Below, piece after piece: positions 1,725-54,239 of a stretch of DNA of 64,000 nucleotides (position 1 is the first letter of the stretch; every line of letters starts with the position of its first letter). A program made the position numbers and the translations under genes. The stretch comes from Strigamia acuminata (lineage: Eukaryota; Arthropoda; Chilopoda; Geophilomorpha; Linotaeniidae). Location: the NCBI GenBank assembly GCA_949358305.1, contig OX442314.1:47438581-47502580 (forward strand), given 5' to 3'. Under the pieces are notes generated by a model, which was not told where the DNA came from, searched no databases, and was given only the letters and a program-made list of their open reading frames with translations.

Positions 1725-1933
1725 TTAGACTTTCTCCTGACCTTGCTATCTGTGTAAATAGGGTGACTCAAGGAAATCGAGGTCAAAGGTCTATTGACAG
1801 CATCAAGTGGCCACATTTCAAGCGAATCAGACGGTGAGATTGTTGCTGAAAAAACCAAAACCGAATTTTTCCTTTAACTAAAACTGTTACTTGCTTTATT
1901 GTTTTAGACTGGAAATTATTCATCTTTCGCCAC

Positions 1934-11517: not shown

Positions 11518-14500
11518 ATGAATAGGAAACCAGCTGCGGTAAAGTATAAAATCCGTAAAATTGTACAACAACAAATTCCACGCCTTTGGATGTTTGAGAA
11601 ATCATTTCCCGAATTACAAACGTTAATTGATCCCATGAAAAGCTCTAAAATCAAATTTGTTTGGAGTTTACTTCTAATGTGCTGCCTTGCAATCTCTTGC
11701 TATCAAACTGGGCAGAAAATCAAATATTTCTTTTCAAACCCCACCGCTACTGACGCATATACGAGAGACGCAACCGAGATGTCATTTCCAGCTCTGAAAG
11801 TGTGCACGCGAGAAAACACATACATACGACATGCGTGGAAATTTTTTTTACACTCAACACCAAAAACTGTGTTCGAGTGTGACGATATTCTGATGCATTT
11901 ATTTGGAAATGAGAATGTCAACATTTCTGCATTATGGGATATTGATATTCCTGTATTAAACAAAACGGAATTTATTTCAGTAAGTAAATCTCGATTTATT
12001 TTGCCCACTGAAATGTAAAACACTACCAGACTTCTTACAGAAATCTAAGGAGAAACCAAACATTCAAATAGACAAAGAATTGACCACATATGGAACCTGC
12101 GCTGTGATAACGGTTGGTAAGTTATGATCGACCATTAACTGCAATAAACTCCTACTATGGAGTCATTTGGTGTTTTCTAGAAAATATTACAGGTCAAAAT
12201 TTATACGGCAAATTGAAAATGTGGTTCAATCGACCACAATTCTGTCCCCCAGGCACACTTTACGTAAATATATTGACAACAATGACAAAAGCAAATTTCA
12301 AACATTAAAACTCATTAAAATTATAGGTGTCAAGCCCTATAGCAGGTAGATTTGATTTAGCAACCTCTGCGAATTCAAATGAAGTAATAAGAAGTAAATT
12401 TAGTTTACAAGAGGTATTTACCATCACCATTTGATTAATTCCCCTACCATCTTCCCCAAGGTGTTACATTAAATACATTTTATGAGTAGATTAGTATGAT
12501 ATTTGTTAAAAGAAACAACGAGAAATTATAAAAATGTAGGAAAAATAGTCACAATGTTGAAAAAAATAGTTTTAGGGTCCAGACAAGCAATGTTACATCC
12601 CCTCTCCGATCCAGACAATATCCTGGGACCCGTTCTGTGTCCGAGCTACAGAGTACATATCAGAGTGTTTTGCTATCAATGGCGTGATATAATATATAGG
12701 GTGGAAGAAAAGTCTTCACTCTACTAAATATTTTTGAAAGTGCTGACAATGCATCTAATCTAAAGATGGTAAAGTAATAAAGTTGGGTGGGGCAATTTTT
12801 TGGTGATCCAAAATTTGACTTCGGGATGTTCCTTTAAGGTCATTGGAAAATTATCTTGGAAACCGATAGAGATAGACAGAAATTTCCAATTGTAAACTTG
12901 TAGAGCAGCATCTATTTAGTCTAAAAATGACTACTCCTCAAATCTTTTGTACTAAAATTTTTTAAGAAAATTGCAATTTCCTAAAGTAGACACAAGTCAA
13001 AGGCTAACCTATGGAAAATGGCCAAAATCGAAAAAGTGCCAAAAACGTGCTGATTAGACGTAAAATGACCTAAAAAATCAATTTCCCCGGTTTTGCACCA
13101 TTGCAAAGATATGGGCAGAAAACCAAGTTTTTAACGGTAAGTAAGATAAGTTGGATAGTACTAATTTGATGGTGCTCTACAACTTTATGGTTGGAAATTT
13201 TGCTCTATCTCGACCAGTTAACGAGTTAGCCAATGAAAAGTGCATTGTTGCATGTCTGGCATAAAATTTGATTGCACTATTGGATTTGTCCTCCCTACTT
13301 TGCTGTAGGCTAGTCTACTTGGTTTTTTAAAAAAACAGATACTTATTCTGGAAATTGACTGTAACGTCTTAAATGAAACACCCTGTATATGTATATCTTG
13401 GCGGAACTGGAAATGACGCATTATGCAAATTAGTTATTCTAATTTGTTCAGTCTCTCGCAGAAACGGATTGGTTAACTGCGCTAACACAATAAATACTAG
13501 AGTCTAGTTAAGTTTATATTAAAAATACAAATAATTATTCATTTATTTATTTATTTATTACATGAATAAAACACTTCTGGTGATCCGGAATAACCACAGT
13601 GTCCATGTAATCCTTGGTTCATAGTACATTGCAAATTTTGATTTTTTTACTTATGTAAATAAAGTTTATATTTCTGAATACATCATCTCATCCATGCATT
13701 GACGAAAAGGAATTTATCAAATGTCACGAGAAATGCCTTCAAGATTTTTACAGTCAACAACCTTGCAGGTGAGGGATCAATTTACACACAGGAATAACCA
13801 TTCAAAATGAATTTGTGAACAAACATAATACTAATATAATTAAATATTATTGTTTATTTAGATTGCCATTTATGAGTGGAAAGACGGGTGATATATGCAA
13901 TACTTCTATTACACTTAGTCTGTACATCACCATTCATTCTAAACTATCGAAAATGAACTCAGAATTAAAGTGCTTGTGCAACCGAATGTGCACTCAAATA
14001 GAAGAGCACATAAAATTCTACACATCTACTACATCAGATGCCCTGTTGACAGAACGTGAAAACGAAGCAGCATCAACTGTTATTGAAGTCATCAAAGAAA
14101 GATATGCTTATGGATTTGTCAATTTACTCATTGATGCAGCCGGAAACATTGCCCTTTACCTCGGGATGTCGATACTCTCAGCTTTGGATTTGATCACATT
14201 AATCATCAATTATCAAAAATGTAATGCAACATCACGAAAAAATAGTAGAATTCACTTTAAAGTATGGCATTATCTGCAAAAGACTAACGGCCATTTCTCA
14301 CGCCTACTGAAAGAAAAGGAGCCAATTCTTTGCAGCGGTATTCAAAACAAATCGGAAAAGGTTGTTTACCTCGGGTGCACCTCTCTGTTTCTGGTCATGA
14401 TCTGTTTCAAATTGATGACTTACATGGCATATCCCATACGAGTAAACATTGCAGTCGCAGACGAAGCAAATGTAACGTTTCCAAACATAACAGCTTGTGT

Positions 14501-17500
14501 AATAACGAATCCGTCGATTATTGAATCGGAGAAGATGTATGCTGATGAAAATAATCTGAGTCAAAGTGATTGTCCCATTCACATGTTGAGCCTACTAGAT
14601 CTAAAAGGAGAAAACCTCACAATAGAAGAACTATGGGAGCAATCTTCCTCTTCAGAAGGTGTAATCTTACATGATTATGTAAGTAGGATTATGCAACTTA
14701 CCAGAAAGTCATCTATATAAATGTTACCTTTTGGCAGGTACAGTTATCAGACATTGAAATAAATACTCCAAGAGGAATATGTACACATTACTTAATTGGT
14801 GAGTCTTTAACTATTCATGCTGCAGTAAATGATTGCCAAAATTACTTATTATTATTACCTTCCCAAGGAGTTGCACAGTATTGGAAGCAAACTTGTTATT
14901 ACAATCGACACCTCAATACAAATCATTTATTGCATCGAGGATTGTTGATAAATTCTTTCAATATTTTTCGATCTATACCATTTAACTCAGTTTCCTTCGA
15001 ATTCTTTTGTTTTTAAATATCATTTTACATTACCGTATTTTGCAGATCATAAGATGCACTTTGAAAAGTCTACCAAAAGTTGGGTGTGGCTTATAATTCA
15101 AACTTGTGGCAAATCTGAGGAATTCCATAAAAATAATTTGGGCATTCCCATGAAAATAATTTGGACAATTATGAAAATCATAATAAAAAATTAAATTTAA
15201 ATTTTTATATTTTTATATTTTAAAATTTTAAATATTTTGGTCCTATGCATCTTATTATTCAAAAGTTTTTTTTTCTAAGACTTGACAGATAAATTTGGGG
15301 TACATCTTATGATCTAACACATTTTATCATCCACAAAATATGCAAAATGATTGAATGATGGATTTACTGAAAATGAGTGAATGACAATTTAATCTTTTTT
15401 CTAGATGAAGCTCCGTACAACGGCAAAGCCACAATGCTTCTGAAATTATACGAGACTTCTAAATTGATGTTATGTGACCAATACTACGAGGTAAAAAAAG
15501 CACATCAATCAGACATTTAATTTTGTATGTTAATTGATTGTCATGTATTACAAAGTTTTTCATAACAACAAGAGAAGACCAAGATTTGGATTTGACTTCA
15601 AATGGATTATTACCATTCAGTGGTGGCATCTTTGTAATTGTTGGGTATCGCATGATAAAGGTGAGGAAACATGAACACGTCATACTTTAGTCAAACACAT
15701 CAATTGGTTGCAAACTCAAAAAGCCATTTTCCTGACTGCTTTTATACAGCGAGTAGTTTTTATGGGTCAAAACGGGTCGCAAAGAAAAATTTTGTTTTTG
15801 AACATTCAAATAGAGAAAACCACGAGGGATGCATGTCAGGAGACTAGGTCCCGAACTTACGAAGGAGTATGGTTCCGAGAACTTGTTCAATGGGGAAAAA
15901 TTGTTCAAACTAATTAAAGAATACATTATTAATCTTATTTTTTTATTATAAATAATAAAGGTTAAAATTAAACAACATTAGATGACAATGAGAGTGTGGG
16001 TTTTGCGCTTGGCCTAAGTAGTTACAAATTGGTAGTTCATATCTATGAAAGTTCATAACTTATTCGATGTTTTATAAATGGCATTGTCAAGTCTAAAGTG
16101 TGAAACTGGCGTTTTACAAAGGGTTCGCATTCTCTTTAATGCATCATTTTTATTTTCTGATGTTTTTAAATATTTACATTCCAGATTTGTTTTCATTTGA
16201 CTTAATTTTATAGTGTTTAGCATTATCAAACCTTATTTTATATCTGATTAATAAATTTAATGGGTTAAATTTTATTTGTCATTTTGGTTTGGCTTCAGCT
16301 CCCCAACTTTGGAATGTAGTTGAAGCAATTACCAGAGCTCTTTTGTACATATGGTACTTTATGTTTAATACTTTAATGCCATGTTCACACTTGAATCACT
16401 TGTCTACATAAGTACTCAACTTTTAAAAGCTCTTGTGTTCACACTTGTTCTAGTTTTCTACAACTGAGAACAAAATGGCGACTCTTTTGCAACTCAGAAC
16501 AAAATGGCCACTCTTCTACAACTTAAATTGTAGAAGTGACTTCTATAACTTGATTTCAAAACTCTAAGTCCCGCTGGATACTTTCAGCATTAGAATAAAG
16601 TTCTTTTGAATGCATAAAAAAAGCACAAGTTTTTATATCTATCAGTTCGTGAAATACAAGCGTAAATGCATTTCGGTAGCTTCAGTTAGAGTGGAAACAA
16701 GATCATGACCTTTGTTTTGGCCCCAAAATCATCTACCGTAACTCCTCGAATAAATGCCGCGGCATTGATTAATTTTCTCAACCCGACCCCCGGTTCAGCG
16801 TGGCGTGCTGTGCAATAAACGCCCCGGCGTTTAAACGAGTCCCGGAGCCTATTTAAACACAGCGTTTATTCGTGGCAGTAGTGTTCTTTAAATGCAAATA
16901 AAGAATTTTAAAAATATGTCGGTTTACTAAACTGGCTTCTGTCTTTTATTTAAAAAAAAAGAAGAGGTTTCTATCTTTAATGGTTCATTATCTACAAGTG
17001 AAAAAGCAAACCCTTACCCTTCAGTGGACAACATTTTGCCAGGCATAAACAATCTTACTAGTTACATTTATGTAGAGGTGCAATAGTTAATAATCCTAGT
17101 TATAAACGTCACTGATTTCTATAAAACTAATCCCTATGTGTGAATGGTCTTAAAATAGACCGTTCAAACTTGTAGAAATTAGACTTTCTAAAAGTCACAA
17201 CTTCTACAAAAGTTGTTCAAGTGTAAACTTGACATTAGACAAAATAAAACTTCAACCCCAGTGAATACACAACTTTCATGATGGACACTTCTTACCTAGT
17301 TTTTTCTTCAACTTGCATTTTATCTTCATACGAAGCTAAGGACTTTTAGGATCGTGATCAACCACGAGACTCATCATAATCTGAACCTCAACCACATTTT
17401 GCCTAGGACAACAAGTCTCGACCATATCTCAAAACTTAAGTTGTTGGGTCGAGAGACATTTTTTTCCAAAAAGTTGGGTTGACATAAAAAAACATTAAGT

Positions 17501-20500
17501 CATATGGGTTAGCCTAGGCCCCAAAAAGATGCCCAGTCCACACTCCACAAAGTCCAGTCGGAGTAGTTTGAGCTTTGTTATCTGCGGCGATCCGGGTTTT
17601 TACTTATTAAATTATATAAATTCAATAAGCAATCGTCGGTGAGATGCCGTACAGGACTTCTACTCTGTGGCTAAATGGTTGTCTAGGGGAATGATTTTTA
17701 CACGGAGAGTAAAAGGAAAAATTAGATTGTTTTAATCGTTCTAAATACACTTGATATATGCAAAGGGAAAATAATAATAGTGTAATGACTGGGTCGATCT
17801 GGCTTCTCTTTGTACTTGGGCACTCACAGTTGACCGTTGGTTCCAAGATGGCGTCGATGGCGTCGTGTGAGCGCGGGATTTTAGCGGAGTAAACTCGACG
17901 CTAAAATACGTTGCTAGATATACTAAAATCCTCGTGGAGCACGCTCGACACGAGAATACTTCTCACACACAGTGAAAGTGATTATTACGGAGCAAGCTCG
18001 ACGTAACAATCCGTCTTAACACACAGATTCCTTTGTGGAGCAAGCTCGACACAAAGAACTACAAATTGACAGAGCAAGCTCTATGTCAATTCCACACAGA
18101 AATGGCTTAAATTACGCGTAGTAATTCAAGCAGTGAAAGCGCTATTCCGTACAGTGGGTACAGACCAGCAATGAAACTCAATTTGTCCAATATCACAGAT
18201 CACACTTAGCAGTTTTTGGCATAAGTTTGACACGGTTGTGAACAGTTTGGGGGCAGAATCAAGAGTGCGGGAAGAGTGGGCCAAAACCGTTTGGCTCACT
18301 TCTAAATCTGCTCAGAAAAGCTGCGCAGATGACGAGTTGCATGAAGATCACACACGGCCGCCTTCGGGTCGTGTGCAACAATCGAGCCGGGCACGCGCGA
18401 GGGGAAGGGATGCTCCGCCCAGGCACACGCCTAGCAGCATCATCAAAGCAATGCACGCTGCAGCGCGATTGGTTGACGCTGTTGCTGGGCCAAAACTTGC
18501 TGCAAAACACAATATTATTTGGGTAATATTGTGTCTTGTTTTATATTTTATTAATGTATGTTTTATTTCAATTTACATTGAAACAAAACATATAAGCTTG
18601 TTGAATATGTTTATAAGACAATTTGGAAATATGGTGCGCACTCAAATAGGAATATTTGAGGTCACCACACTTCCCCCCCTTTTAAGAAAGAATCTTATTC
18701 TTTTCCAAAAAGAGACAGGTAAGTATAGGAATAAATACACAAGGTTTCAAAGTAAAATGGAACAGGATATATATTTATTCTTTTTTATTACAATATAAAA
18801 ATAAAAAAGGAATTATTTTTAATGAACGGGCGTGTTCCCTAATTATTTCGGCAACATGTCCGTCGAATGATCGTTTGGATCTTTGTGCTCGGTGACGGTG
18901 CACAAAGGTCGGCCGGCGTTTGGTCCTGACCGGAAGCCAGGGTTGATGTGGAGCCACACTTGCTTGATGCGGTCCACACCATCCCTTCGTCCAAAACCCA
19001 TCTCGAAATACTCCTGCGGGTCTTGAGGCGTAATTCGAGCGAACACCAGACGTTGATGCAGGATCCACGGCTGTTGTTCCTTGATATGGTTTTCCAGCCA
19101 CGCGAGGACTCGGTTGCATAAATCCTCGCTGTTCTGGAGAATCGTTTTCGTCGCGCTCGTTATGTAGCAAAAAGCGTATAAAGAGCGCAAACGTTGATAG
19201 GCAGTGAGGTAGGTGGCCATTTTCGATCCCCTATCTCTCGGCGGCGAATCCTTTGGAGGAGGCGGCGGTGGCGGCGACTTCTTGCAGATCGAGAGGGATC
19301 TGGATCTGCGCGAAGCCGGGGTGCGCGTCTTTGGTCTGGCACCGCTGGCCACAGGCACGACGAACTCGCGATCGTCGCTGTCGAGCCACTCCATCGGAGA
19401 CGAGACGTTGCAACTCGGTGCCTCGGTTGCACGGGAAACACTCGACGTTGCCGTGATGGCAGCGTGGAGTGGAGCTGCGGATGACGGTGGTGCGCCAGCG
19501 GGACGGGCGGTGGCTCGTTCCGTTGCGCGCTGCTGCTTTAGTGTAGCCCATTCCTGCCGTAGTCGAATGGCGGATCCAGCCGGAGTTTCGCCAGTCGCCT
19601 CGGCTTGTTGCGTCAATTCGGCGAGCATCGTTGGAGGATCGGGGCGAACTGACTCCCAATCGCCCAGCAAGGCTCGTGGAAGCCCTAACGGCACGGTCCA
19701 CAATCGAGTGGCGGCGGCCAGAGCAATCTGTGGGTCAGGAAAGACTCCTTGGAACAGGATTCGAAGAAATCCTTCCGACAACTTCCTGTTCATCCTCTGC
19801 AGCGTCCGTTGCAGTTGCTTGTCGGACTTGCACGACGCAAGCTCTCGCGCAAGCCATTGCCATTCTTTCTCACCTTCGCGGATCTGAGCGAGTTGGTATT
19901 CGTCCAGATGCGCGAGGTACATCGCTTGGGCTGTCTCGGGAAACGATGAGAATCGCCTCCAGAGATCAGCGCACTCCTGTGCGGGAAATGGTTCGTGAGA
20001 GACGTATCCCTCAAAACGGATGACCGATGTCACTTGTGGCACGGGCACCGATGGGTCTGGTCGCATGTCGCTGGTAACTGGACGGCAAGCAAACGGCAAA
20101 GAGGTGTTGACGTCTCCTTGACCGGCTTGCAATGCGGCGATGCGTCGGTCTTCCTTCGCTACCTCGTCCGTCCAGTCAATCCGGCCGGAGGAGGAAGCGG
20201 TAAGCTGCGAAGCGTTGGATCGTTCTTCACGCGACGAGAGTGAACTCCTCGTGGAAGATTGGCGCGATTGCACTCGAGGTCGGCTTCGGGATGTGGGTCT
20301 CGACACGGACTTCGAATGTCTTTTTGGCGGCGTCGACTCGCGTCGGTGATGTGAGCGATGACGAGTCTTCTGGAGTGGAGGTAACCCTCCAATGGCGCCT
20401 TTCCCCGACGACTGGGTTGGGGAGGAGCGACGGCCACTGTAGGGCGACCTCGATGATCGTGACCTCGACGTGGAGCGCGGTGGCACCACGTGGATGGTGG

Positions 20501-23500
20501 AAGCGACCTGTACCCGGGGCTCAGGCTCTGGATACGGGTTTGGCACGAAATCAGCATGGAAACATCCGCCCATGGCTAGTTGATGCATCTCCGATTGGCA
20601 TGTCGGCACCCAACGTTTCTTTCCGTCTGTAGTCACACGGAAAGATTCGTGGTAGAGGCGCACAACCTCGGCTTTGGTTTGGTCCAAGCGTTGGAAAATG
20701 TCCTCCAAAATCTGTCGGCGCTCCCACGCAGGAGCGTTGAAGTAACGGCGATGGTCTCGCGTTTCTTGAGCGATCACTGTGAAGGCGAAGTTGAGCAACA
20801 CGTTTCGCAGTGGTCCGAAGGTGTCGCGCTTCATTGCCCACTCGAGGGCGTCGCGATGACCGAATCCATCGATTAAGTAGGCGATCCGAAACTTCGTTCC
20901 CCATCGCTTGTTTAAGGCCTTGGAGAATTTGTGTCGGGCCGCCCAAAACGTCAGTCTTCCTTTGGACTTGATGATTTCTGGCGGCAATGCATGTCGCCAG
21001 ACACCAGGAGCGGTCGGAACATCGGGGTGCAAGTCGAGATGCGTCTCCCGAAGTTGGATGATCTGTAAAATATTCGAAGAAATAATTAAAATCCATTTTT
21101 TCGTGTAAAATAATTATTTCCGAATTTTCAGTGAATAAAATCACGGGTGAGATTTCATTCGGCAGTTTAGATTCGTTAAATTTTTCAAAATATTTGAAAA
21201 ATCGTGAAAAGCGTTGTTTCCGACGGCTATGTTTCAGTGTTTGGAGCGTTGCCGTAGCAACGCCTCAAAAATGAGACACAGCGCTATCTGATGATAAAAA
21301 TGGCGGCGCCTCCTCGCGAAGGCGTTACCAACAAACTTTTCGCTTTTTCTGAGTGAAAATGCACTTTTAATTACTTTTCATGACTGAAAGGTAATTTTAT
21401 TTTAAATTATTTACCCGGTCGTGTCTCTGTGCACGAGTTTCGCCGTTTGGATCGGCGAATAGGCCTCCTCGTAGTCGGGGCTGAGACGGCGTGACTGGCA
21501 AACGGGCAGCAGCGTCGGCCAGAGCGGCTTGAGCTTCGGCGGACGCTTCGGCGGACTCTTCGGTGACATCCACGGATGTATTCGAAGTATTTGCGGAACC
21601 AAGCAGCGTCGAATTTGTTTCTAATTCGAGGCTGTTGGCGCCGGCTTCGCTTCCTTCTTTCGGTTCCTCTCCTTCCATTTGAACGACTAATCCAAATGGA
21701 AAAGAAAAACGAAAATTAATTTATTAGTTTTTTCCTTGGAAAATTCCAAAGAAAAAACTACTTACAATTGAAGATTCTCGTTGAAATAATCCGGTTGTTG
21801 CTTTTGGTTTTTTGGGAGATGAGCACTTAGCACACGTGTGAGATCGAAGTGAACTCAGACGCGAAGTGATCAGTTCAAATACCGGAAGTTACGTTTGGGT
21901 AACGTCGCTGTTAGTGACGTCATCCAATCTTACTGTTTGAATGGTTTGAGTATGGCTTGAGGAATTGCTCCTTACGTCATACGGCTGATCCCTGGATCTC
22001 GAGGTTAGCGAGGGGAGAAGACACATGTTGTTTTTTCCTCTCGGTTTACGAGTCCGAAGATTATATCTCTTTGTCGGCGAGGGATTTATTGTATTTAAAT
22101 CGCCGTCTTCATTGTCATCGGAGACTGAGTCAGATGAGTCTTTTATTTCAGATGTTTTTTGTTTCTTTTCTAAAAACACCTTTTTATTTAATTTTTTAGC
22201 AATTTCAAGTTTTTTGAAACTGTCACGAAGCTCAACGTCGTTATTCACGAGGTCTGACTCCATTTGTGGTTTGGATGAATTATCGACAGGTATTTTCTTT
22301 AATTCATCGTCATCTAACGTATTAATTATATTTTCAGTCTTTTGACCGACTTCTTCGCCTTCTAACCATACTTCCTGGTCGAAACTCGGGAAATACGGAG
22401 TTAATTCAGACGAATGGACAGCTGGAAATATTTCGTTATTCTCTAGCTTTCTCAATTCTACCGAACCTCCCTGTAATACTTTGGTTATTACATAAGGTCC
22501 TGTTCTTTTATCAGCGATGCCAGCTGCAATGCCGCGGGCAGCGCTCGACAAAACATGAGAATCTCTCCAAACTAAATCGTTTAATTTAAAATTGGAGAAC
22601 TTCTCACCTTCTTTTTTAAGATTAACTCGTCTGCGCAAATCTAACACGTGTGACATCATGTGCTGATATGTTTCGGCGATAACGGCTTCTAATTTTTGCA
22701 CGTATAAATGTGGGTTTTTTGGATCTACGACCAAAATTCCTTCAGGTATTCTTGGATCCCAAGGTACTCTGAGTTCGCGAAAAAAGTTAAGAAATGCAGG
22801 AGAGAAGTCTCTTCCTCTCGTCACCGTAGTTCTCAAGCTAAATGCAAATTCACGCAAATATTCGTCCCATTTGGAATGAATAGATGAATAAATTGCAACC
22901 AAATATTTGATGTCACGGTTAACCCTTTCAACCGGGTTAGCTTGTGGGTGATACGTTGAAGTTGGTGTTGGAACCATCTTGAACTTTTCACAAAATTTTT
23001 TGAAGACTTGGGCACGAAATTGTGGGCCGTTATCAGAAATAATTTTACGAGGGAATCCCATACTCATGGAAAGGTGATAAATGCAATTTGCTACTTTTCC
23101 AGCAGTGGGGTTACACATTGGATATAGTTCTGGCCAATGAGTTGCCACGTCAAGTATGACTAAAATATGTGTGTTGTTTTTGCGCGTCCGAGGTTTCGGG
23201 CCGGTCAAATCAACACTTAGACAGTCAAATGGGCTGTACGGACCCATTTGCGCTGCTTCAATTTGTCCTTTCGTTCGAGGTTTGCAAGCTTGACAGCGCT
23301 CGCAGTGTCGAATGAATCTCGTAATGTCCGATTTCATGCCTTTCCAGGTATAAATTCGGCGTGCTCGATAAAGAGTCCTTGCAATTCCTGGGTGGCCAGA
23401 AAGTGGGTGGCCATGCATCAGCCAAATAATTTTATACTTCAATGTCTGAGGTATAAAAACTTTGAGTGCTCTCCCATCCTCCCCCAATTCATCAGACATT

Positions 23501-26500
23501 GTGGGATGAAATTGCATTAATAAGTCATCTTCAATTAAGAAGGTGGTTGCGTGTTTTCTATATTGTTTCCTCTGTAGTCGCGTTGTGACGTCAGGCGGAA
23601 ATTGATTACAATTTAAAAAGTTACGCATCAATTGGCAAACTTTATCTTCTTTCTGCGCCTTAATTATGTCTTCCCTTGTGGGAGGTTCACAATCAAGACG
23701 TTCTACAATTTTGGCGACAAATGCTTTTATTAAAACATTTGACGAAGGAACTTGGAATTTCCTTGAAATTTGCGCTCTTATGACGTCATCTGATTCCTCA
23801 GAGGGGTCATAGATTTTAGTCCAATAGTTGACGAATTCATGATCTTCCTTTTCCTCCAGCGTGGAGACAGGAAGTTCATGAAATTTTCCCATTTTCCAAT
23901 TTCGTTGAGGTGATGGACAGTAAGATAATAATTCGTCATTATCTCCATCATCTTCAGGATTTTCCGGTTTGTCAATCGGTGATCTGGATAAAGCATTCGC
24001 TAAAACATTTAGTGGACCTTTAATATATTGTATTTCAAAAGAGTAGCGCATCAGCTCCATTTGCCAACGCGCTAACCTTCCGGCAGGTTCGTCCAACTGC
24101 ATCAACCATTTTAATGCTTGATGGTCAGTCCTTACTATGAATGTTGTAAATTCCAAATAATGTCGAAATTTACGTAATGCCCAGATTACCGCTAGGCACT
24201 CCAATTCTGTGGCGCTGTAATTTATCTCAGCAGGTTGCAAACTTCTGCTGGCATAAACACAAGGCACTTCGATATTTTGATCATCGATTTCTCTCATTTG
24301 CATAAGCGCGGCGCCTAGTCCTTTTCTGCTGGCGTCGGTATGCACAATAAATGGTTCTGTCAAATCAGGCATGGCCATTGTTTCTGCATTTGTTAAAGCA
24401 TCTTTTATTTGATCAAAAGCTTCTTGATGAATTTCTGACCAAATAAATTCCACATCCTTTTTGAGTAAAGGACGTAGAGGTTCTGTCATTACTGCCAGAT
24501 TTTTAAGTAATTGGTGAAAAAAGTTCACCATTCCCAAAAATCTTTGCAACTCTTTTAAATTTGAAGGAGCTGGCATTTCTTTAATGGCGGCGACTTTTTT
24601 AGGGTCGACACTAACTCCTTGAACACTTAACTTGTAACCAAGAAAAGTTAATTCTTTTCTGCCAAATTTCGATTTTTCTGGATGAACATGAAGATTTGCA
24701 TTTTCAAGTTTACTCAGAATTTCTTCCAGATGTATCATGTGTTCTTCAAAATTTTTTGATATTATAATTATATCATCGAGGTATGCCCATGCGAATTTTC
24801 GATAGGCGTCCCCCAAAATTTTTTCTATCAACTTTTGGAAAGTTGACGGCGCATTTACGAGACCAAAGGGCATGACTCGAAATTGAAGTCGACCCAAAGG
24901 GCTCCAAAACGCAGTTTTAGCACGGTCGTTCGGATGAACCTCTATCTGCCAATAGCCTTTTGACAAATCTATTGTTGTGACCCATTCAAATCTTCCGAGT
25001 TCTCGCAAGATTTCCTCAATGCTGGGCATTTGAGGAGGGTCGTATAATGTATGTGCATTGAGTGGTCTAAAATCAATGCAGAGTCTCGGATCACAATCCG
25101 GACGCATCACTAGAACTATTCGCATTCCATAGTCTCCAGTGGCTTGTTCGACGTACCCATTATCCAACATATCTTGACAGATTTGACGGATAATTTCACG
25201 TTTCTGTGGATTTACGCTTTTAAACGGAACTCTAATAGGAACTTTAGTGTCCAGTTTAATTTCATGCCTAACGAGGTGTGTTCTACCTGGTCGGCGAGAT
25301 AAAATCTTTTCATGTTTCTTTAATACTTTTTCAAGCATTAAATTATTTTCCATTGACAAATTAGCGTCGCTAACAAGTCTTTGTACTATATTTTCTTCAT
25401 CGGCAACTTTAGCTTGACATGCAGTGGCGGAACCAGCTTTCATGTGATTTGCTTTAATAAAGTCGTGTTTCATGATTTCTTCGGGTGGATCAAGGAACTC
25501 TTGATAACGATCAAGAATCGCTTGAGGAACAAAAGGTAAATCTTCTTTCAAAGACTTGACAAAATTCCAAGACATGGTCTTAGGATTTGGTTGAATATTG
25601 AGTCGATTCATGAAATCACATCCTAATAAAATAATAGGATATTTATTTCTTAAAATTATGAATGGATGACTTAACATCCCGTGTGTCCACGCAAAAGAAA
25701 GTAGGAGAGTTCCTTCAGGGACTACATCTTCTGAAGCAGTCGTAACTCTCACATCCGGTCCAATTGGTCGAATTTCACCTTCCAGTTTCAGCGAAATTAC
25801 TACGGAGTAGGCCATGAAACTTCGATTAGCTCCAGAGTCTAACATTCCTGTTATCATACCGTTTGCCGTCTGCAATCGAATTGTCGGCAAATCATTGCTG
25901 TTTGGTATGTCCGCGTACTTGCATTTAAAACGTCGCGGTGGCTTAATTTCTATCGGCGGATCCAATGGTAATTCGTCCAATAAATCATTAGTGACTAGCG
26001 TTGTAGCCATTAATTTTTCAATGCAATCGTCAAGACCAGGTAAATCAATTTTACCTGACCTTTCAACAATTTCAGGTGTGGGCCTAGCTTTTCCATCTAG
26101 TAAAGTAACAGCATCTTTTATTTTAGATTCCCAATCAACTTTTATTTGTTGAACTTTTTCTTTAAAAAATTCCTCAGTGATGTTTTCACTTTGTAGCACA
26201 AGCTTTAAACTGGAAACATCAATTTTTGGAAATATTAAATTATTTTCGATTTCTAATTTAATCTGAGTATTCAAAAATTCATCTAAAATTTGAGATGGTG
26301 TTAGTTCATTTTCCGAGGCGGTAGGCGTCGCATCCACTAGACCGTCTGGATGCGCGCTTACAAGTTTTTTAGAAGTTCGCCGATTGATTTCATCGATTTT
26401 TCGAACTCCTCAATGATCTTGTCTTTGCTCGATTTTCTGTCAGGACATTCTTTAGCCCAATGTCCCAATTTTTTACAAATATTACACGGGTCAGTAGCAG

Positions 26501-29500
26501 GCGATTTCGCGACTTTTGGCGAAGGCGAACTTGAACGTTTGGCTTCGTCCTTTTTAGGGGTCGGCGACTTCGATCTACTGAGCGCGTCTGTCTTTGGTGA
26601 ACCAAAAGTAACGTTTTTAGGCGCCATCTTTGGTCCAAATTTTCGAGCTACTGCGTTATTACGGGCTAATAAAGCAGCTGCAGCCTCGCTTTCTGGTTCC
26701 GAGTCAGATTTCTCTGGTTCAGAAGCAGTTTCCATTTCTGTCACTTCGGCTAAGTGAGCTTTAGGGGTTGGATGTGGATTTTTCCCATCCGATCCCTTTT
26801 TAGATTCCTTAGCAGTCTCTGCCAAAAAATCTCCTCGTTTTGGGGGTTGCAAAAGAGGGGTGTTAGCAAAACGTGTGTCTTTTGCCAACTCCTTTCTCCG
26901 TTGCTGTCGCTTAGCGTACGCAACTTTTTCATCAGCTGGTAGGTAAGCTTTGTAATTTTCATCAATTCTTATCTGGTTAGCTCGCATAAATTTGGCTAAT
27001 TCAGCGAAACCACCCGGATAAGGTGCTCGTACTGAAAGTAGAACATTTTTTGAATAATCGGTCAATCCACGACGGAATTGACGATCAATGGCTGCGTCTC
27101 CCATCGTATAAGGGAGAGTGACCAATAAATCCTCAGTCCTTCTTAAATAAGAGCGAAGACTTTCGCCTTTGTTTTGAGAAAGATTATCCCACATTTGTAG
27201 TAAGTCTTCACTTGACTCTCCATACTCAGTCATGAATTCTTCTACAAAGTGGTTCCAATTTTGAAATTGTTTAGAATAAAACCATTTCTCAGCTCGATCT
27301 ATAAGAGCTTTTGGTACTACTCTTTTCAAAGCAGTGTGACATGCAATGCCATTCAACCTTGAAATTCGTAAAACTTCATCTAAAAGAGTGGATCCAGCTT
27401 CCCATTCTCCATCGAATAAAGCGGGTTTGATGTGATCCCATCTAATAGTTCTTTCATCAACTAGATCGTGAGTCCAGTTGTTGGCAGTGTATTGTGCAAT
27501 TTTCTGTCGTAATGCAATGTCAGCATTATCGGCAGTAGCGTCAGATCGATCAGAAGATCGACGATCAGCTAATAATCGATCAATTTCTTCAGCAGTGTAA
27601 TAATGTGTATTACGCCGAGAAGAATGGCCTCGATGTCGACGTCGATGAGATCGATGTCGATTATCGCGTTCTTGTTGCGCATTCACATCAGAATCCGACC
27701 TTGAATCAGATTGTGAATTTGAAGGCGTGTTAAAATGTGGTGTTTCAGGTGGGTCGGGTGGGTCGCCGTCATCGTCTGGCGGTCGACGTCCACCTCCAGG
27801 TGGTCCATCTCCATGTCCATCTGGATTTCCTCCATCTGGTGGATTTCTCCTATACTGACCCCCACCTGGCGGGCTTTCATGTCCGTCCGGCGGTTCGCGT
27901 GCTGGATTGGTGTCTCGTCGACTTCTTTTCGACGCATCTTGCTGCTGAGCCAGTGGTATCGTTCGGGCAACGTGAATACCTGTTTCATGTCGTCTATTTC
28001 GATCGTCTACCATCCCCAACAGTCGGTCACTGTTGTGAAAAATTGGATTTCGATTGCCAGGAAGTGGATTGCGATCAGCTCTCCTTTCCTCGGAATCTGA
28101 AGGACGTTTTCTTTTTGAGCGATGGCGGCGACGCGAACGTTGGTCGTCATCACTTGATAATCCAGATTGGCTACTTAACTCTGAAACAACAGAAATTGTT
28201 ATCGTTTCGGGAGTCAAAATAGGAACAGTTGGCGCAGCCATTTCTGGTTGCACCAATTGGTCAGTATAATTTCTTGCTTGCAAACGATCTTTCATTTCTG
28301 CAAGCTCTTCTTGAGCGCGCAACAAATCAGCTCGGAGAATTTCATTCTCATTTATTTGATTTTGCGATTCTCCTGGTTGTAATCGCTTAGCAGAGTCGCT
28401 AGACTTGACTTGTCCGCTCGTACTGGGTTGATCCAGCGAGTGGAAAATCTCGTCTTCACGCTTAGCTATTTTGCTTTCGCGAGTACGCTGTGTTTTAGCA
28501 CGTGTGTCTAATTCAGCAGCATATCTCACTAGTTGATTATGATTGCGTTGGTAGTGATCTGCCAAATCAATCAATTCTTTATTTTTCTGCTCCAGCTTAC
28601 TTTTGGTAAGCTCGAGCTGTCTTCGCGCCTCTTGGTGTGAGCGAATTGAAAGTTCATTTCTAGTATTCATTTTAGAAAGATCTTCCACTTCACCTTTTAA
28701 TCGGTATTCTCTAGCTTTTTGGGCTAGAAATTCCTCATTTTGTCGATTGAGTTCCATATGTTGGAGCTCAACCTCCGCTTTTTGTTGTTGAAGCTCGGCT
28801 TCTTTTCGTTCCATTTCAAATTGTAAATTTGAAACGGCTCGGTCAGTGTGAAGTCGTATCATGGCGCGATGAATCTCTTCCACCGTCATGTCGTCCGTTA
28901 TTTGGGCGCCATCCTGGCGTGCTTGATTTCTCAAAGCATCCAGCATGGTCATGCGAGGAGGTGATTCGTGAGACGATTCACTTTCCATTTCACGTAACGT
29001 ATTTTCCACTTCCTCCAGTGGAAGTGGCGGGAGTTCTTGTTCGTTAGAACTCGCACTTGATGCGCTCAGGGCTCGAGCAACTTCATTTTCAGCATCCTTA
29101 AGTTGTTTCGGATCTGGAACTGGTGTTATTTCTTCAGAAATAATTTTCTCCATAAGCATTTCAGGCTCGAGAGCCGGCAAAACCGTCGCTGATCGTTTCT
29201 GAGTGCTTGGTCGACCTCTTTGTCGTTTTACAATTTGCATTGGCGTCGCCATTTTGTCAAATTGAAAAAGAACAATGGAAATAAAGGATCTTTTTGCAAA
29301 AATCGGATTTTAACAATCAAAACAATCCCGGCCGGGCCCCCAAGTGCGGCGATCCGGGTTTTTACTTATTAAATTATATAAATTCAATAAGCAATCGTCG
29401 GTGAGATGCCGTACAGGACTTCTACTCTGTGGCTAAATGGTTGTCTAGGGGAATGATTTTTACACGGAGAGTAAAAGGAAAAATTAGATTGTTTTAATCG

Positions 29501-32051
29501 TTCTAAATACACTTGATATATGCAAAGGGAAAATAATAATAGTGTAATGACTGGGTCGATCTGGCTTCTCTTTGTACTTGGGCACTCACAGTTGACCGTT
29601 GGTTCCAAGATGGCGTCGATGGCGTCGTGTGAGCGCGGGATTTTAGCGGAGTAAACTCGACGCTAAAATACGTTGCTAGATATACTAAAATCCTCGTGGA
29701 GCACGCTCGACACGAGAATACTTCTCACACACAGTGAAAGTGATTATTACGGAGCAAGCTCGACGTAACAATCCGTCTTAACACACAGATTCCTTTGTGG
29801 AGCAAGCTCGACACAAAGAACTACAAATTGACAGAGCAAGCTCTATGTCAATTCCACACAGAAATGGCTTAAATTACGCGTAGTAATTCAAGCAGTGAAA
29901 GCGCTATTCCGTACAGTGGGTACAGACCAGCAATGAAACTCAATTTGTCCAATATCACAGATCACACTTAGCAGTTTTTGGCATAAGTTTGACACGGTTG
30001 TGAACAGTTTGGGGGCAGAATCAAGAGTGCGGGAAGAGTGGGCCAAAACCGTTTGGCTCACTTCTAAATCTGCTCAGAAAAGCTGCGCAGATGACGAGTT
30101 GCATGAAGATCACACACGGCCGCCTTCGGGTCGTGTGCAACAATCGAGCCGGGCACGCGCGAGGGGAAGGGATGCTCCGCCCAGGCACACGCCTAGCAGC
30201 ATCATCAAAGCAATGCACGCTGCAGCGCGATTGGTTGACGCTGTTGCTGGGCCAAAACTTGCTGCAAAACACAATATTATTTGGGTAATATTGTGTCTTG
30301 TTTTATATTTTATTAATGTATGTTTTATTTCAATTTACATTGAAACAAAACATATAAGCTTGTTGAATATGTTTATAAGACAATTTGGAAATATGGTGCG
30401 CACTCAAATAGGAATATTTGAGGTCACCACATATCTGAACTAAGATTGATTGATTGAATCCTGTTCACTGTGTAATTATTAGAAAAATATAAACTTACAT
30501 ATATTTTTTTAAATTTATTAATAGTTTGATCGCATAAATACACCAATAAGAAAATGTAGGCCACCAAACGATTTCTATCAGTGCAAAAAGGAATGTTACC
30601 GCAAAAAACTGAATGAAAAATTAACATGCCGGTATGTTTGTATGGACATACAGTATATGCAGATTATATGCACCCAGTCATAACAATATCAAATTTCTTA
30701 AACCAAACATTAGAAAAAATATTTATTCATTTCTTTCACACAAATTCTAGTTATTGTTTAGGCAACAAATTATTCATTCCCCATCTTTGACTCATTTTAC
30801 CCCCAAGAAGGACTTAAAGTCTTGCAAATAAAAATTTTGATCTCCTCTAATATTTATTTTCTTGAATAAAAGGTTTTACACCCCAACATTTCCCCCAATT
30901 ACTGCCAAAGTACCACAATTCTTATTTTTAATTTTATTGTGAACACTTATCATTTGATGGGCATATCCTCGATGGTGTTTCTGACGATGGGAACAGTTTT
31001 TGCCTCTGGTGGTAGGACAATCATATCTTGAAAATGTACATCTTTGTAAACACGGGTCATGTGCAAGTTACAGTCATCGTTTTCAATCTTATCTTGCCAC
31101 AAATGATTTTTTCAATAGATATGATTTGGCCATCCAATGCCTAACCAAAATTCATTTGTGGCGTATCAAGATTGAAAATAATGACTAAACTATGAAACAT
31201 GCAAATGCCCAGTGTTTGCAAAGATGTATATTTGCAAGATATTGTTGTCGTACCCCCAAAGGAAAAAAACTGTACCCACTGAACAGAAACATCATCAAAA
31301 GCTATGAAAGCATTGTGTTTACAATAAAAATAAATATAAAAGTTGGGATACATTTGGCAATAATTAGGGTAAATATGTTGGGATATGAAACTTTTGTTTG
31401 GGGAAATATACATTAAAAAAGAACTACTCATGTAGGTTTCTTTTTGAGTGGGGAGATTCATCTTGGGTGGAAAATAAGTCAAAGATAAAGGATTATTAAA
31501 TCGATTCTTATTGTTTTAGACTGAAACTTTCAGATCAATTTTATAGTGATAAACAGAGCACACATATTTCACTACGAATACTGAAGACAGATTTGTAAAA
31601 CGTACAAACTACTAGATCATATAGCTAACAAAATTTTTTTCTCCCTAGATTACCGTACATCGACCAACTGCAATATCCCATGTGCAACACTTCTCAATCG
31701 GCGAAAATGACTGATTATATCTACAAAACAACTTTTCTTGCCACAAATGTTAAAGATGAATGTCAATGTCACATTCCCTGCAAAGAATCTAAGTACTCTA
31801 GCTTGGCACAATCTACACGTTACAGAAGTCTTGTGACCAATGTAATTGGCCATTTTTTTGAAACAAACAAAATTCAAATTTTTATTGACCGGCTTGAATA
31901 CGACATTATCTCGTTCATATGTGACATCGGAAATATTTTAAGTTTATCGCTAGGTCTGTCAATATTGAGTGTGGCAAGAAAAATAGAAAATATTTCTACA
32001 TCAACAACAATATCATTCGGATCATGGGTTTGCAACATGAGAAAAAAATAA
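11518..32051 (+). CDS. DEG/ENaC gene A: two channel subunits fused in one protein (796 aa, 11 exons)
   Basis: Predicted plasma-membrane sodium or cation channel of the degenerin/ENaC/pickpocket family. Exons: 11518-11979, 12041-12116, 12181-12263, 12327-12413, 13665-13768, 13862-14678, 14738-14798, 15405-15490, 15556-15660, 30525-30631, 31649-32051. They sum to 2391 nt with every phase matching. Unit 1: TM1 about residues 45-62, Cys-bearing ectodomain, TM2 about 355-387 with the GxS filter (GMS, 372-374) in GNIALYLGMSILS. A basic linker of about 50 residues follows, then unit 2: TM1 about 438-459, a second ectodomain, and TM2 with IGNILSLSLGLSILS. TM2 of unit 1 and TM1 of unit 2 lie in the same 817-bp exon, so the fusion does not depend on a splice guess. 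Intron 4 holds a MITE and intron 9 the 12.85-kb element 1 in antisense. Expression is unknown. Confidence 0.82.
12692..13390. mobile_element. MITE with TATA(C)AGGGTG ends in gene A intron 4
   Basis: It begins ATATAGGGTGGAAG and ends CACCCTGTATAT, inverted ends that differ by one base. This resembles the CACCCTGTATA-ended repeats often met in arthropod genomes. The interior matches the truncated copy at 10185-10560. No transposase is seen. The remainder of intron 4 (12414-12691, 13391-13664) is AT-rich and unassigned. Confidence 0.55.
16375..17236. mobile_element. Foldback/MITE element in gene A intron 9
   Basis: The ends AATGCCATGTTCACACTTGAA and the inverted CAAGTGTAAACTTGACATT form imperfect terminal inverted repeats. 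Inside, 16741-16878 is a second, nested foldback with CTCGAATAAA(T)GCCGC facing GCGTTTATTCG. Neither encodes protein. The rest of 15661-17582 is AT-rich; I see no missing exon there. Confidence 0.45.
17583..18669 (-). repeat. Element 1 LTR (3' LTR in element orientation)
   Basis: 1087 bp, TG...CA ends (minus orientation TGTGGTGACC...ATCGCCGCA). It carries the hairpin array at 17878-18090. Antisense open frames in it recur identically in the other LTR and are not genes. Confidence 0.95.
17878..18131. repeat. Hairpin array in element 1 LTR (copy also at 29640-29893)
   Basis: Five hairpins in a row: 17878-17907, 17931-17954, 17981-18010, 18031-18056, 18065-18090. Each has the form stem, GAGCAAGCTC-type palindrome, GA or TA, stem complement. 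Stems: ATTTTAGCG/CGCTAAAAT, CTCGTG/CACGAG, TTACG/CGTAA, CTTTGTG/CACAAAG, ATTGACA/TGTCAAT. In the first, the core is GAGTAAACTC, a paired change that keeps it palindromic. A sixth hairpin without the core follows at 18105-18131 (AATTAC/GTAATT). Different but always matched stems imply selection on folded RNA or DNA. In the element strand the array is about nt 579-792 of the LTR. Confidence 0.85.
18843..21678 (-). CDS. Element 1 third gene: acidic leader exon spliced to Arg/Ser/Pro-rich ORF3 (function unknown)
   Basis: Proposed exons 21415-21678 (ATG at 21678; 88 codons, Glu/Ala/Ser-rich, starting MEGEEPKEG) and 18843-21062. The donor is GG|GTAAAT and the acceptor TTTTACAG|A; both sides are in phase 0. 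The large exon has no suitable ATG of its own, since its first homologous residues precede any Met, which supports splicing. The product would be about 827 aa. An N-terminal helical region ends in MHQLAMGGCF. An RS-rich middle (about 280-400) follows, then a second helical block (QIREGEKEWQWLARELA to PDPPTMLAELTQQ), PPPPPPP, and a C-terminal domain ending QVWLHINPG.RSGPNAGR.LC.V.E..DP. No signal peptide, membrane helix or env motif is seen. The same gene occurs in elements 2 and 3. Confidence 0.7.
21889..26370 (-). CDS. pol: Element 1 Pol (protease-RT-RNase H-integrase), made by -1 frameshift from gag
   Basis: The open frame has 1482 codons from 26337 and stays open upstream through the slippery site at 26364-26370, so a Gag-Pol fusion is expected rather than a separate start (no ATG at 26337). 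Domains: aspartic protease LDSGANRSF (166-174), reverse transcriptase with LCIDFRPLN, MPFGLVNAPSTFQ and AYLDDI (YLDD 519-522), RNase H HTDASRKGLGAAL (from 666) with TELECLAVIWALRKF, integrase HHCC finger (HGHPLSGHPG...CERCQACK, about 985-1030), DDE core with LSVDLTGPKP, ISDNGPQF and NPVERVNRD, and a basic C-terminal tail with YNLRTRKPRG. I see no chromodomain. All catalytic motifs are intact. Confidence 0.95.
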   Translation of the reverse strand, partial: KKLVSAHPDGLVDATPTASENELTPSQILDEFLNTQIKLEIENNLIFPKIDVSSLKLVLQSENITEEFFKEKVQQIKVDWESKIKDAVTLLDGKARPTPEIVERSGKIDLPGLDDCIEKLMATTLVTNDLLDELPLDPPIEIKPPRRFKCKYADIPNSNDLPTIRLQTANGMITGMLDSGANRSFMAYSVVISLKLEGEIRPIGPDVRVTTASEDVVPEGTLLLSFAWTHGMLSHPFIILRNKYPIILLGCDFMNRLNIQPNPKTMSWNFVKSLKEDLPFVPQAILDRYQEFLDPPEEIMKHDFIKANHMKAGSATACQAKVADEENIVQRLVSDANLSMENNLMLEKVLKKHEKILSRRPGRTHLVRHEIKLDTKVPIRVPFKSVNPQKREIIRQICQDMLDNGYVEQATGDYGMRIVLVMRPDCDPRLCIDFRPLNAHTLYDPPQMPSIEEILRELGRFEWVTTIDLSKGYWQIEVHPNDRAKTAFWSPLGRLQFRVMPFGLVNAPSTFQKLIEKILGDAYRKFAWAYLDDIIIISKNFEEHMIHLEEILSKLENANLHVHPEKSKFGRKELTFLGYKLSVQGVSVDPKKVAAIKEMPAPSNLKELQRFLGMVNFFHQLLKNLAVMTEPLRPLLKKDVEFIWSEIHQEAFDQIKDALTNAETMAMPDLTEPFIVHTDASRKGLGAALMQMREIDDQNIEVPCVYASRSLQPAEINYSATELECLAVIWALRKFRHYLEFTTFIVRTDHQALKWLMQLDEPAGRLARWQMELMRYSFEIQYIKGPLNVLANALSRSPIDKPENPEDDGDNDELLSYCPSPQRNWKMGKFHELPVSTLEEKEDHEFVNYWTKIYDPSEESDDVIRAQISRKFQVPSSNVLIKAFVAKIVERLDCEPPTREDIIKAQKEDKVCQLMRNFLNCNQFPPDVTTRLQRKQYRKHATTFLIEDDLLMQFHPTMSDELGEDGRALKVFIPQTLKYKIIWLMHGHPLSGHPGIARTLYRARRIYTWKGMKSDITRFIRHCERCQACKPRTKGQIEAAQMGPYSPFDCLSVDLTGPKPRTRKNNTHILVILDVATHWPELYPMCNPTAGKVANCIYHLSMSMGFPRKIISDNGPQFRAQVFKKFCEKFKMVPTPTSTYHPQANPVERVNRDIKYLVAIYSSIHSKWDEYLREFAFSLRTTVTRGRDFSPAFLNFFRELRVPWDPRIPEGILVVDPKNPHLYVQKLEAVIAETYQHMMSHVLDLRRRVNLKKEGEKFSNFKLNDLVWRDSHVLSSAARGIAAGIADKRTGPYVITKVLQGGSVELRKLENNEIFPAVHSSELTPYFPSFDQEVWLEGEEVGQKTENIINTLDDDELKKIPVDNSSKPQMESDLVNNDVELRDSFKKLEIAKKLNKKVFLEKKQKTSEIKDSSDSVSDDNEDGDLNTINPSPTKRYNLRTRKPRGKNNMCLLPSLTSRSRDQPYDVRSNSSSHTQTIQTVRLDDVTNSDVTQT
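26358..29252 (-). CDS. gag: Element 1 Gag (964 aa)
   Basis: Structural protein of the intracellular particle. It starts with ATG at 29252. A long Glu/Gln-rich coiled coil covers about residues 60-340. An Arg/Gly/Pro/Ser-rich stretch lies at about 370-580 (DGHGDGPPGGG, RHRSHRRRHRG). A retrotransposon gag/capsid domain follows at about 600-760 (FDGEWEAGSTLLDE, WNHFVEEFMTEYGE, ESLRSYLRRTEDLL). A CCHC zinc knuckle CNICKKLGHWAKEC sits near residues 923-936, just before the end. The frame ends at TAA (26358), two codons after A AAA AAC. It is larger than typical Ty3/gypsy Gag because of the coiled coil. Confidence 0.92.
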   Translation of the reverse strand: MATPMQIVKRQRGRPSTQKRSATVLPALEPEMLMEKIISEEITPVPDPKQLKDAENEVARALSASSASSNEQELPPLPLEEVENTLREMESESSHESPPRMTMLDALRNQARQDGAQITDDMTVEEIHRAMIRLHTDRAVSNLQFEMERKEAELQQQKAEVELQHMELNRQNEEFLAQKAREYRLKGEVEDLSKMNTRNELSIRSHQEARRQLELTKSKLEQKNKELIDLADHYQRNHNQLVRYAAELDTRAKTQRTRESKIAKREDEIFHSLDQPSTSGQVKSSDSAKRLQPGESQNQINENEILRADLLRAQEELAEMKDRLQARNYTDQLVQPEMAAPTVPILTPETITISVVSELSSQSGLSSDDDQRSRRRHRSKRKRPSDSEERRADRNPLPGNRNPIFHNSDRLLGMVDDRNRRHETGIHVARTIPLAQQQDASKRSRRDTNPAREPPDGHESPPGGGQYRRNPPDGGNPDGHGDGPPGGGRRPPDDDGDPPDPPETPHFNTPSNSQSDSRSDSDVNAQQERDNRHRSHRRRHRGHSSRRNTHYYTAEEIDRLLADRRSSDRSDATADNADIALRQKIAQYTANNWTHDLVDERTIRWDHIKPALFDGEWEAGSTLLDEVLRISRLNGIACHTALKRVVPKALIDRAEKWFYSKQFQNWNHFVEEFMTEYGESSEDLLQMWDNLSQNKGESLRSYLRRTEDLLVTLPYTMGDAAIDRQFRRGLTDYSKNVLLSVRAPYPGGFAELAKFMRANQIRIDENYKAYLPADEKVAYAKRQQRRKELAKDTRFANTPLLQPPKRGDFLAETAKESKKGSDGKNPHPTPKAHLAEVTEMETASEPEKSDSEPESEAAAALLARNNAVARKFGPKMAPKNVTFGSPKTDALSRSKSPTPKKDEAKRSSSPSPKVAKSPATDPCNICKKLGHWAKECPDRKSSKDKIIEEFEKSMKSIGELLKNL
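26364..26370 (-). promoter_or_regulatory. -1 ribosomal frameshift heptamer A AAA AAC (element 1)
   Basis: The minus strand reads CTA AAA AAC TTG TAA in the gag frame, which contains the canonical X XXY YYZ site A AAA AAC directly before the gag stop. The -1 frame is open across it and leads into pol. Downstream G/C-rich sequence could form a stimulatory structure, not modelled. Confidence 0.8.
29325..29344 (-). other. Element 1 primer-binding site, tRNA-Pro-like
   Basis: Just inside the 5' LTR (minus strand) the sequence reads CT then TGGGGGCCCGGCCGGGAT, matching the known tRNA-Pro primer site TGGGGGCTCGTCCGGGAT except at two positions. Confidence 0.6.
29345..30431 (-). repeat. Element 1 LTR (5' LTR in element orientation)
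   Basis: Same length (1087 bp) as the copy at 17583-18669, and I found no difference in the stretches compared. The hairpin array is repeated at 29640-29852. TSD TATC follows at 30432-30435. Confidence 0.95.
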
Positions 32052-34669: not shown

Positions 34670-35077
34670 CGAATCTCGTGGTTTTCCTCACACAAACAAC
34701 TCAAAGTCGTCTCGCACAATTCCATCTGGATGAACGTGTGCTTGCTGCTTTTCCACGATTTATAGAATTTTAAAACGTTCGGAAAGTCCGGCAGCTTCTG
34801 GAACTGATTCACCTCCAATTCCAGAAGCTGCCGGACCATCCGAACGTGATAAAATTCTATAAGTCGTGGAAAAGCAGCAAGCACACGTTCATCCAGTTGG
34901 AATTGTGCGAGACAACTTTGAGTTATTTGTGCGAGGAAAACCACGAGATTCGTTGGTTTGGAAATATTTGATTGATTTATTCATGGCGCTTAAGCACCTT
35001 CACGACCACGATTTAGTCGAAAGCAGCCGACATTTTTAGTTTAGGGATCACCATATTGGAATTGGCGTGCGATTTTA
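34670..35077 (+). pseudogene. Myt1/Wee1-type kinase pseudogene with inverted duplicate
   Basis: On the plus strand (34783 onward) the frame reads a Myt1-like N-lobe: QKLPDHPNVIKFYKSW, FIQLELCETTLS and CEENHEIR. A stop and frame change follow, then HDHDLV and directly SLGITILELACD, so the catalytic loop and activation segment are missing. The minus strand of 34670-34810 encodes the same piece again (KLPDFPNVLKFYKSW, FIQMELCETTLS). The two arms form an inverted repeat of about 140 bp centred at 34811. No functional product is possible. Sequence 35078-35579 shows no gene. Confidence 0.75.
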
Positions 35078-49933: not shown

Positions 49934-49991
<58 letters not shown>

Positions 49992-53470: not shown

Positions 53471-53584
53471 ATTGCTGACGTTTTTCATTTCAGCGTTTTT
53501 GTGATGTTAAATTGATTTTTTCAGCGTTATTAAATGTAGCGTTTTAATTAAACTTATTTAATAAACAAAATTCCAGAAGGTAAT

Positions 53585-53920
53585 TCATTTGAGGATACAA
53601 AAGAGAGAACGAGAGGTAGCAGGCTCCCAGTAAAAGGAATCATTTTGAAGAAAGACAAAGTTAAAAATTACACACATTTGTGGAAACATTCCAACATTAC
53701 AGAAAATTTGCAGCACTTCAAGTTCAAACAGGCAAGTAACCTTGGATAAATAAAAGAGCTATATTAAGTCTAAAAATATTGTTGTCAGTATTTTGCTAAT
53801 TACTACTTTTTCAGACCAAGATGAGATGTGGCAATTACACAAACCACAGAAAACAGTTGAATTAAAATACAAGAATTCTATTTTCGGCAATACACTGATT
53901 ATGAAAACAGATAAAAACTA
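53585..53920 (+). pseudogene. Partial copy of DEG/ENaC gene B (end of exon 1, intron 1, exon 2)
   Basis: 53598-53731 matches the last 135 bp of gene B exon 1 (GTCCCAGT.AGAGGAATCAT; AATTACACACA.TTGTGG.AAC) and 53815-53918 matches exon 2 (AATTAAAATACAAGAATTCT.TTTTCGG). The intron between them has no LTR element. Exon 2 of the copy runs straight into a stop. It abuts the 3' end of gene C, so it is a duplication fragment rather than a gene. Confidence 0.8.
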
Positions 53921-54239
53921 ACGAGGAAAAGGACTGATAAGCGATTATAGGGCAAAGTGAGATTGCTTATTTTTTCCCGTGGTCCATTTGGTTGAGAAGT
54001 TGGTGCAAATAATTCAACACGGATAAAAGGGAAAATCCAAGGAAAAGTCCAATGCTGCCTCCAACATCAGACACCAAACTGGACAAAGGATAAGCGTAAA
54101 ATTCTCTAACGATTTGCCTCGTATTTTTCTTGTAACTGATTACAATGTTGGCGGGGCCGCCGTGATGTCCAACATCACCTGTAGTTACGGCATACTCGGT
54201 TTTGGAGCATGGGCGTCTGCAGTTGCTCTTTTGTTGTAA
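53771..54239. repeat. 469-bp direct repeat, left copy (flanks LINE)
   Basis: Matches 55709-56177 base for base where compared. It contains the gene B exon-2 fragment and the last 295 bp of gene C. It ends ...TTTTGTTGTAA exactly where the LINE begins. Confidence 0.9.

Follow-up and report, generated by a model that had tools for sequence, protein, structure and literature searches.

The window, a stretch of 64,000 nucleotides from Strigamia acuminata (contig OX442314.1, positions 47,438,581 to 47,502,580), harbours three genes predicted to encode DEG/ENaC channel subunits, named here A, B and C. Upstream of the channel genes, exon-like ORFs at 1850-9760 are GART-like (purine synthesis) by eye. 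An inverted repeat was also found at 34670-34952, with arms of 137 bases that are 93% complementary and lie 9 bases apart.

Gene A (11518-32051, + strand) was rebuilt from the raw sequence as 11 exons that sum to 2391 bases, or 797 codons including the stop, which is the exact total that a previous sequence-only reading had counted without phase error. All ten introns are GT-AG with consistent phases, and the predicted product has 796 residues, in frame throughout. The features of gene A, with its exons as rebuilt, are the following:

11518-11979, + strand: exon 1, N-terminus and TM1 of unit 1
12041-12116, + strand: exon 2, unit 1 ectodomain
12181-12263, + strand: exon 3, unit 1 ectodomain
12327-12413, + strand: exon 4, unit 1 ectodomain
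13665-13768, + strand: exon 5, Cys-rich ectodomain of unit 1 (acceptor at the 72nd percentile)
13862-14678, + strand: exon 6, fused, with the end of unit 1 and its TM2 (GMS), the linker and the TM1 of unit 2
14208-14360, + strand: inter-unit linker, 51 residues, 11 K/R versus 3 D/E, without Met
14738-14798, + strand: exon 7, unit 2 ectodomain
15405-15490, + strand: exon 8, unit 2 ectodomain
15556-15660, + strand: exon 9, unit 2 ectodomain (acceptor at the 71st percentile)
30525-30631, + strand: exon 10, Cys-rich ectodomain of unit 2 (acceptor at the 70th percentile)
31649-32051, + strand: exon 11, end of unit 2 with TM2 (GLS) and the stop

The make-up of exon 6 agrees with the one proposed before, where the linker had been given as about 50 residues. 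Splice sites were ranked as percentiles among the GT or AG sites of the same gene, and all twenty sites of gene A lie at least at the 70th percentile, the weakest three being acceptors at 70-72. Hydropathy of the gene A protein gave four strong helix peaks, at approximately 41-65, 355-389, 435-465 and 748-772. A fifth peak, at 603-628 within the second ectodomain, is weak. The TM segments of genes B and C were placed by alignment only. The Pfam ASC profile (PF00858, curated cut-off of 23.6 bits) matches the joined gene A protein with 91.9 bits in three stretches. Searched singly, both halves match above the cut-off (A1 49.8 bits, A2 53.1 bits). The main claim of the sequence-only reading for gene A, two complete ASC units in one unbroken reading frame, is borne out by the rebuild, the ASC matches and the open junction between the units.

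Gene B (35580-52748, + strand) is the next gene after A and was not covered by the earlier reading, which dealt with gene A only. It is a paralogue with an equal plan, consisting of 12 exons that encode 840 residues and two ASC units:

35580-36068, + strand: exon 1, N-terminus and TM1 of unit 1; donor cut by an LTR element
49632-49749, 49819-49931, 50022-50111, 50238-50350 and 50407-50588, + strand: exons 2-6, unit 1 ectodomain
50653-51305, + strand: exon 7, fused, with unit 1 TM2 (GYS), linker and unit 2 TM1
50850-50972, + strand: inter-unit linker, 41 residues
51416-51491, 51555-51643, 51901-52011, 52073-52179 and 52367-52748, + strand: exons 8-12, rest of unit 2

The last part of gene B (exons 8-12, to 52748) contains the unit 2 TM2 with GLS, followed by the stop. 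Searched singly against Pfam ASC, units B1 and B2 score 73.2 and 42.4 bits. The A and B proteins are 24% identical overall; by part, identical residues make up 92/364 of those aligned for unit 1, 9/46 for the linker and 84/346 for unit 2. Among themselves, the tandem units are 17.5-21.5% identical.

The third gene, used as a comparator, keeps the DEG/ENaC feature of one unit per chain, which is broken in A and B, with two units each:

57517-55905, - strand: gene C, an ordinary two-TM DEG/ENaC gene, six exons, 432 residues

Its stop lies 8 residues past the end of TM2 as set in this analysis. The last exon of gene C, which encodes TM2 (55905-56265, - strand), has a second copy at 53970-54242 (- strand), whose protein is 98.9% identical over 91 residues. 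Fragments like exons 1 and 2 of gene B were found beside these copies, at 53564-53912 and 55741-55850, and an ORF between them (54166-55488) is by eye similar to a non-LTR reverse transcriptase. Taken together, the copies, fragments and ORF point to a local duplication around a mobile element.

Intron phases 0,1,0,0,2 are common to all five units (A1, A2, B1, B2 and C). Introns 2, 4 and 5 fall in identical alignment columns (249, 325 and 367) in five out of five, and introns 1 and 3 lie within 9 and 12 columns, respectively, across the units. Unit B1 possesses one additional intron, before TM2. Five exons, one fused exon and five further exons give the 11 of gene A, and gene B has the same plan with its one extra intron. 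Since phases and positions are shared, the exon models are strongly supported; with five intron phases common to all units, each of A and B resembles two C-type six-exon genes fused together. The units also have seven invariant cysteines (121, 247, 256, 270, 283, 310 and 314 in A1 numbering). The GxS tract of TM2 reads GMS in A1, GLS in A2, GYS in B1 and GLS in B2, with G372 and S374 invariant in all five units. The HG motif before TM1 is absent from all four tandem units, as seen by eye in the alignment.

For both A and B, the sequence itself shows continuous frames, the TM segments, a pair of ASC matches in each protein, and intron phases and positions common to the units. We consider it likely that each encodes a fused tandem DEG/ENaC subunit, derived from the joining of two C-type genes. 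The predicted plan of both proteins is TM1, ectodomain, TM2, basic cytosolic linker, TM1, ectodomain and TM2.

No stop was found between the units of A or of B, and the frame is open at both junctions. The methionines that flank the linker of gene A are residues 373, in the GMS tract of TM2, and 450, in the middle of TM1. None lies between them, and a separately started unit 2 would therefore lose part of TM1, barring an unseen exon. The linker of gene B has two methionines (458 and 472), so this argument applies to gene A only. In simulations with the non-coding composition of gene A (20,000 trials per length), the chance of an open frame was 0.0235 (about 2.4%) for 51 codons and 0.047 (4.7%) for 41 codons. 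An intron hidden in exon 6 of gene A was considered and rejected, because the frame is open throughout and an intron with a length that is a multiple of three would still give a fusion. Adjacent tandem genes are common in the DEG/ENaC family, and each predicted fusion could be two separate genes, with a promoter and a 5' exon that belong to unit 2, or with alternative processing at the end of unit 1. However, the unit 1 stop in both genes and the start of A2 must then come from unseen exons, there being no inter-unit stop in A or B and no methionine before TM1 of A2, and we regard two genes per locus as improbable. An assembly error that joined two genes is conceivable in a repeat-rich region. 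It was nevertheless rejected as highly improbable, given that the junction lies within one continuous exon and that the highly diverged locus B has a like junction.

The linkers have a net charge of +8 in A (11 basic and 3 acidic residues) and +11 in B (11 basic, none acidic), and from this positive charge they are predicted to be cytosolic. The likeness of the two linkers is not significant, their global alignment score being reached by 90 of 1000 shuffles and the local score by 802 of 1000, and for this reason linker conservation was dropped as evidence. Basic linkers could be sites of cleavage, in which case one chain would give two ordinary subunits, as a polyprotein with a fixed 1:1 ratio. 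Cytosolic linkers would not meet furin. The search for motifs revealed no NPGP (2A-type) sequence in the A or B protein. R-x-K/R-R sites occur only twice in the two proteins, at residues 6 and 659 of B, both outside the linker. Engineered ASIC concatemers did give smaller bands too, some of single-subunit size, according to the available text of PMC4529235. On balance, we think it doubtful that the chain is cut. Instead, we infer that each tandem gene would be expressed as one mRNA and one uncut chain.

Both A and B contain a large LTR retrotransposon with 4-base target copies:

17583-30431, no strand assigned: LTR retrotransposon in intron 9 of gene A; identical LTRs of 1087 bp, flanking tatc
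36071-49571, no strand assigned: LTR retrotransposon in intron 1 of gene B; identical LTRs of 1018 bp, flanking aggt

An element with identical LTRs in an intron of each gene could indicate that A or B is a decaying copy, with no protein made. In gene B the element cuts the donor of intron 1, and this donor (36068) is one of three weak ones, at the 43rd-53rd percentile, together with 49931 and 50588, the last of which belongs to the extra intron. The far-side target copy reads aggtaaat, which suggests that the donor at 36068 was probably better once. Nonetheless, at 24% identity between the proteins, every exon (11 in A, 12 in B) is open and in phase, and the splice sites of gene A are ordinary, so decay appears unlikely. 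The three weak donors of gene B could mean that it is in decay or that its unit 1 has been misread. As far as the DNA can tell, gene A is the safer case, whereas in gene B the fused exon is clear and expression is less sure. A run of 54 A lies at 49936-49989, a few bases past the donor of gene B intron 3 (49931).

Among proteins with solved structures, the closest to the tandem units are the centipede channels PDPNaC1 and BRTNaC1; no insect relative was present among the solved matches, and the tree is mostly weak. The search with phmmer aligned unit A1 (query 41-398) with PDPNaC1 from TM1 to TM2, with an E value of 1.7e-15 and small gaps only, PDPNaC1 being the best solved match to A1 over the two-TM length. 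BRTNaC1 in this search matches only residues 626-778 of the gene A protein, in unit 2, and is the best solved match of this last part of A2 and of B2, as well as the nearest row to B1 by BLAST. PDPNaC1 is described as having a short ectodomain. Both centipede channels are short (421 residues in all for PDPNaC1 and 431 for BRTNaC1), so no exon seems to be missing from the tandem units. Similar to the four tandem units, PDPNaC1 lacks the canonical HG motif (available text of PMC12714832) and is a working channel, which indicates that HG is not defining in this group. Its pore tract is GAS, versus GMS, GLS or GYS in the tandem units. Unlike A and B, PDPNaC1 is described as a single two-TM unit, encoded by nine exons, that forms a homotrimer; BRTNaC1 is likewise described as a single two-TM unit that forms a trimer. 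By analogy with these centipede relatives, a channel with a tandem chain would be a sensory cation channel.

A tree was built from seven rows (A1, A2, B1, B2, C, PDPNaC1 and BRTNaC1), in which one out of four inner branches is well supported. The grouping of A2 with B2 received support of 98/97, although the tree has very long branches and the program flags this join as a possible long-branch effect. The grouping of A1 with B1 is present in the best tree with support of just 47/31. A1 with A2 (p-AU 0.028) and B1 with B2 (p-AU 0.043) were weakly rejected, and one clade of the four tandem units is neither supported nor rejected (p-AU 0.509). In the proposed origin, a C-type gene with six exons would have been present as a tandem pair that then became joined. 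Copy 1 would have lost its stop and copy 2 its start, so that the final coding exon of the former reads straight on into the initial coding exon of the latter. A single fusion would predate the divergence of A and B; one fusion before the A/B duplication is suited by the A2 and B2 grouping, though unproven.

DEG/ENaC channels are thought to consist of three subunits, and a chain with two units is therefore odd, as it cannot fill a trimer evenly. In K2P potassium channels and other repeated-pore channels, which like A and B have fused pore units in one chain, two chains fill a fourfold pore evenly; a threefold pore, by contrast, is indivisible by two. The sequence-only reading had concluded that three tandem chains make six units, that is two trimers, unless units are left unused. 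This account is incomplete, since it omits a trimer made of a tandem chain and one two-TM subunit, for example that of gene C. In such a trimer, two of the positions would go to one tandem chain and the remaining one to an ordinary two-TM subunit, be it C or another, so that the make-up would be set at 2:1. We tentatively favour this model because the ordinary gene C lies next door. With similar caution, we propose that the tandem family is older than the split of its 24%-identical paralogues and would form an obligate 2:1 heterotrimer with a two-TM subunit.

Engineered concatemers of ASIC and ENaC subunits resemble A and B in that they are described as head-to-tail subunits with a cytosolic linker. 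They are man-made, with added linkers such as N1Q7, in contrast to A and B, which are natural, with 41-51 residues between the helices and units that are 17.5-21.5% identical. According to the available text of PMC4529235, an engineered ASIC1a dimer concatemer gave typical currents in oocytes, with a pH0.5 of 6.35, and the tandem form alone is therefore no bar to function. The same text describes typical currents for ASIC1a concatemers of two, three and four subunits alike. Since the two- and four-unit forms work, and a trimer then needs spare or partly used units, tandem chains could also pair mutually, either as two chains with three units in one pore and the fourth outside, or with three chains forming two linked trimers. 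We see this as possible though rather unlikely, because it would waste units in a natural gene that has persisted as two paralogues with 24% identity, and because an ordinary partner gene, C, adjoins. Alternatively, two tandem chains would evenly fill a tetramer of units. Crosslinking was used to argue that ASIC1a on the surface of cells is predominantly tetrameric, but chicken ASIC1 crystallized as a homotrimer (both in the available text of PMC4529235), and PDPNaC1 and BRTNaC1 are trimers as well, which makes a tetramer quite improbable.

The sequence-only reading had stated that no natural concatemer is described in this family. This holds in so far as no natural two-unit DEG/ENaC protein was found among the matches listed from the open-access literature (titles and starts of abstracts). 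It needs qualification, as two-ASC proteins are listed as predictions in domain databases, though many of these entries may stem from faulty annotation. Profile searches of a protein database gave no match for the A and B alignment or the five-unit alignment (E <= 0.001), nor for residues 290-436 of B (E <= 1). Even the single-unit profile found no DEG/ENaC protein at all, so these negatives are uninformative on the rarity of tandem genes.

How many subunits make up an ASIC or ENaC channel is described as controversial (PMC4529235) and has been probed with man-made concatemers; a natural concatemer would make assembly directly testable. If the proposed fusion is true, it would hard-wire the order and number of subunits in a threefold channel, and the linked units would be free to specialise. 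The retention of a natural concatemer in two diverged genes would demonstrate that the order of subunits in a trimeric channel can become fixed by evolution.
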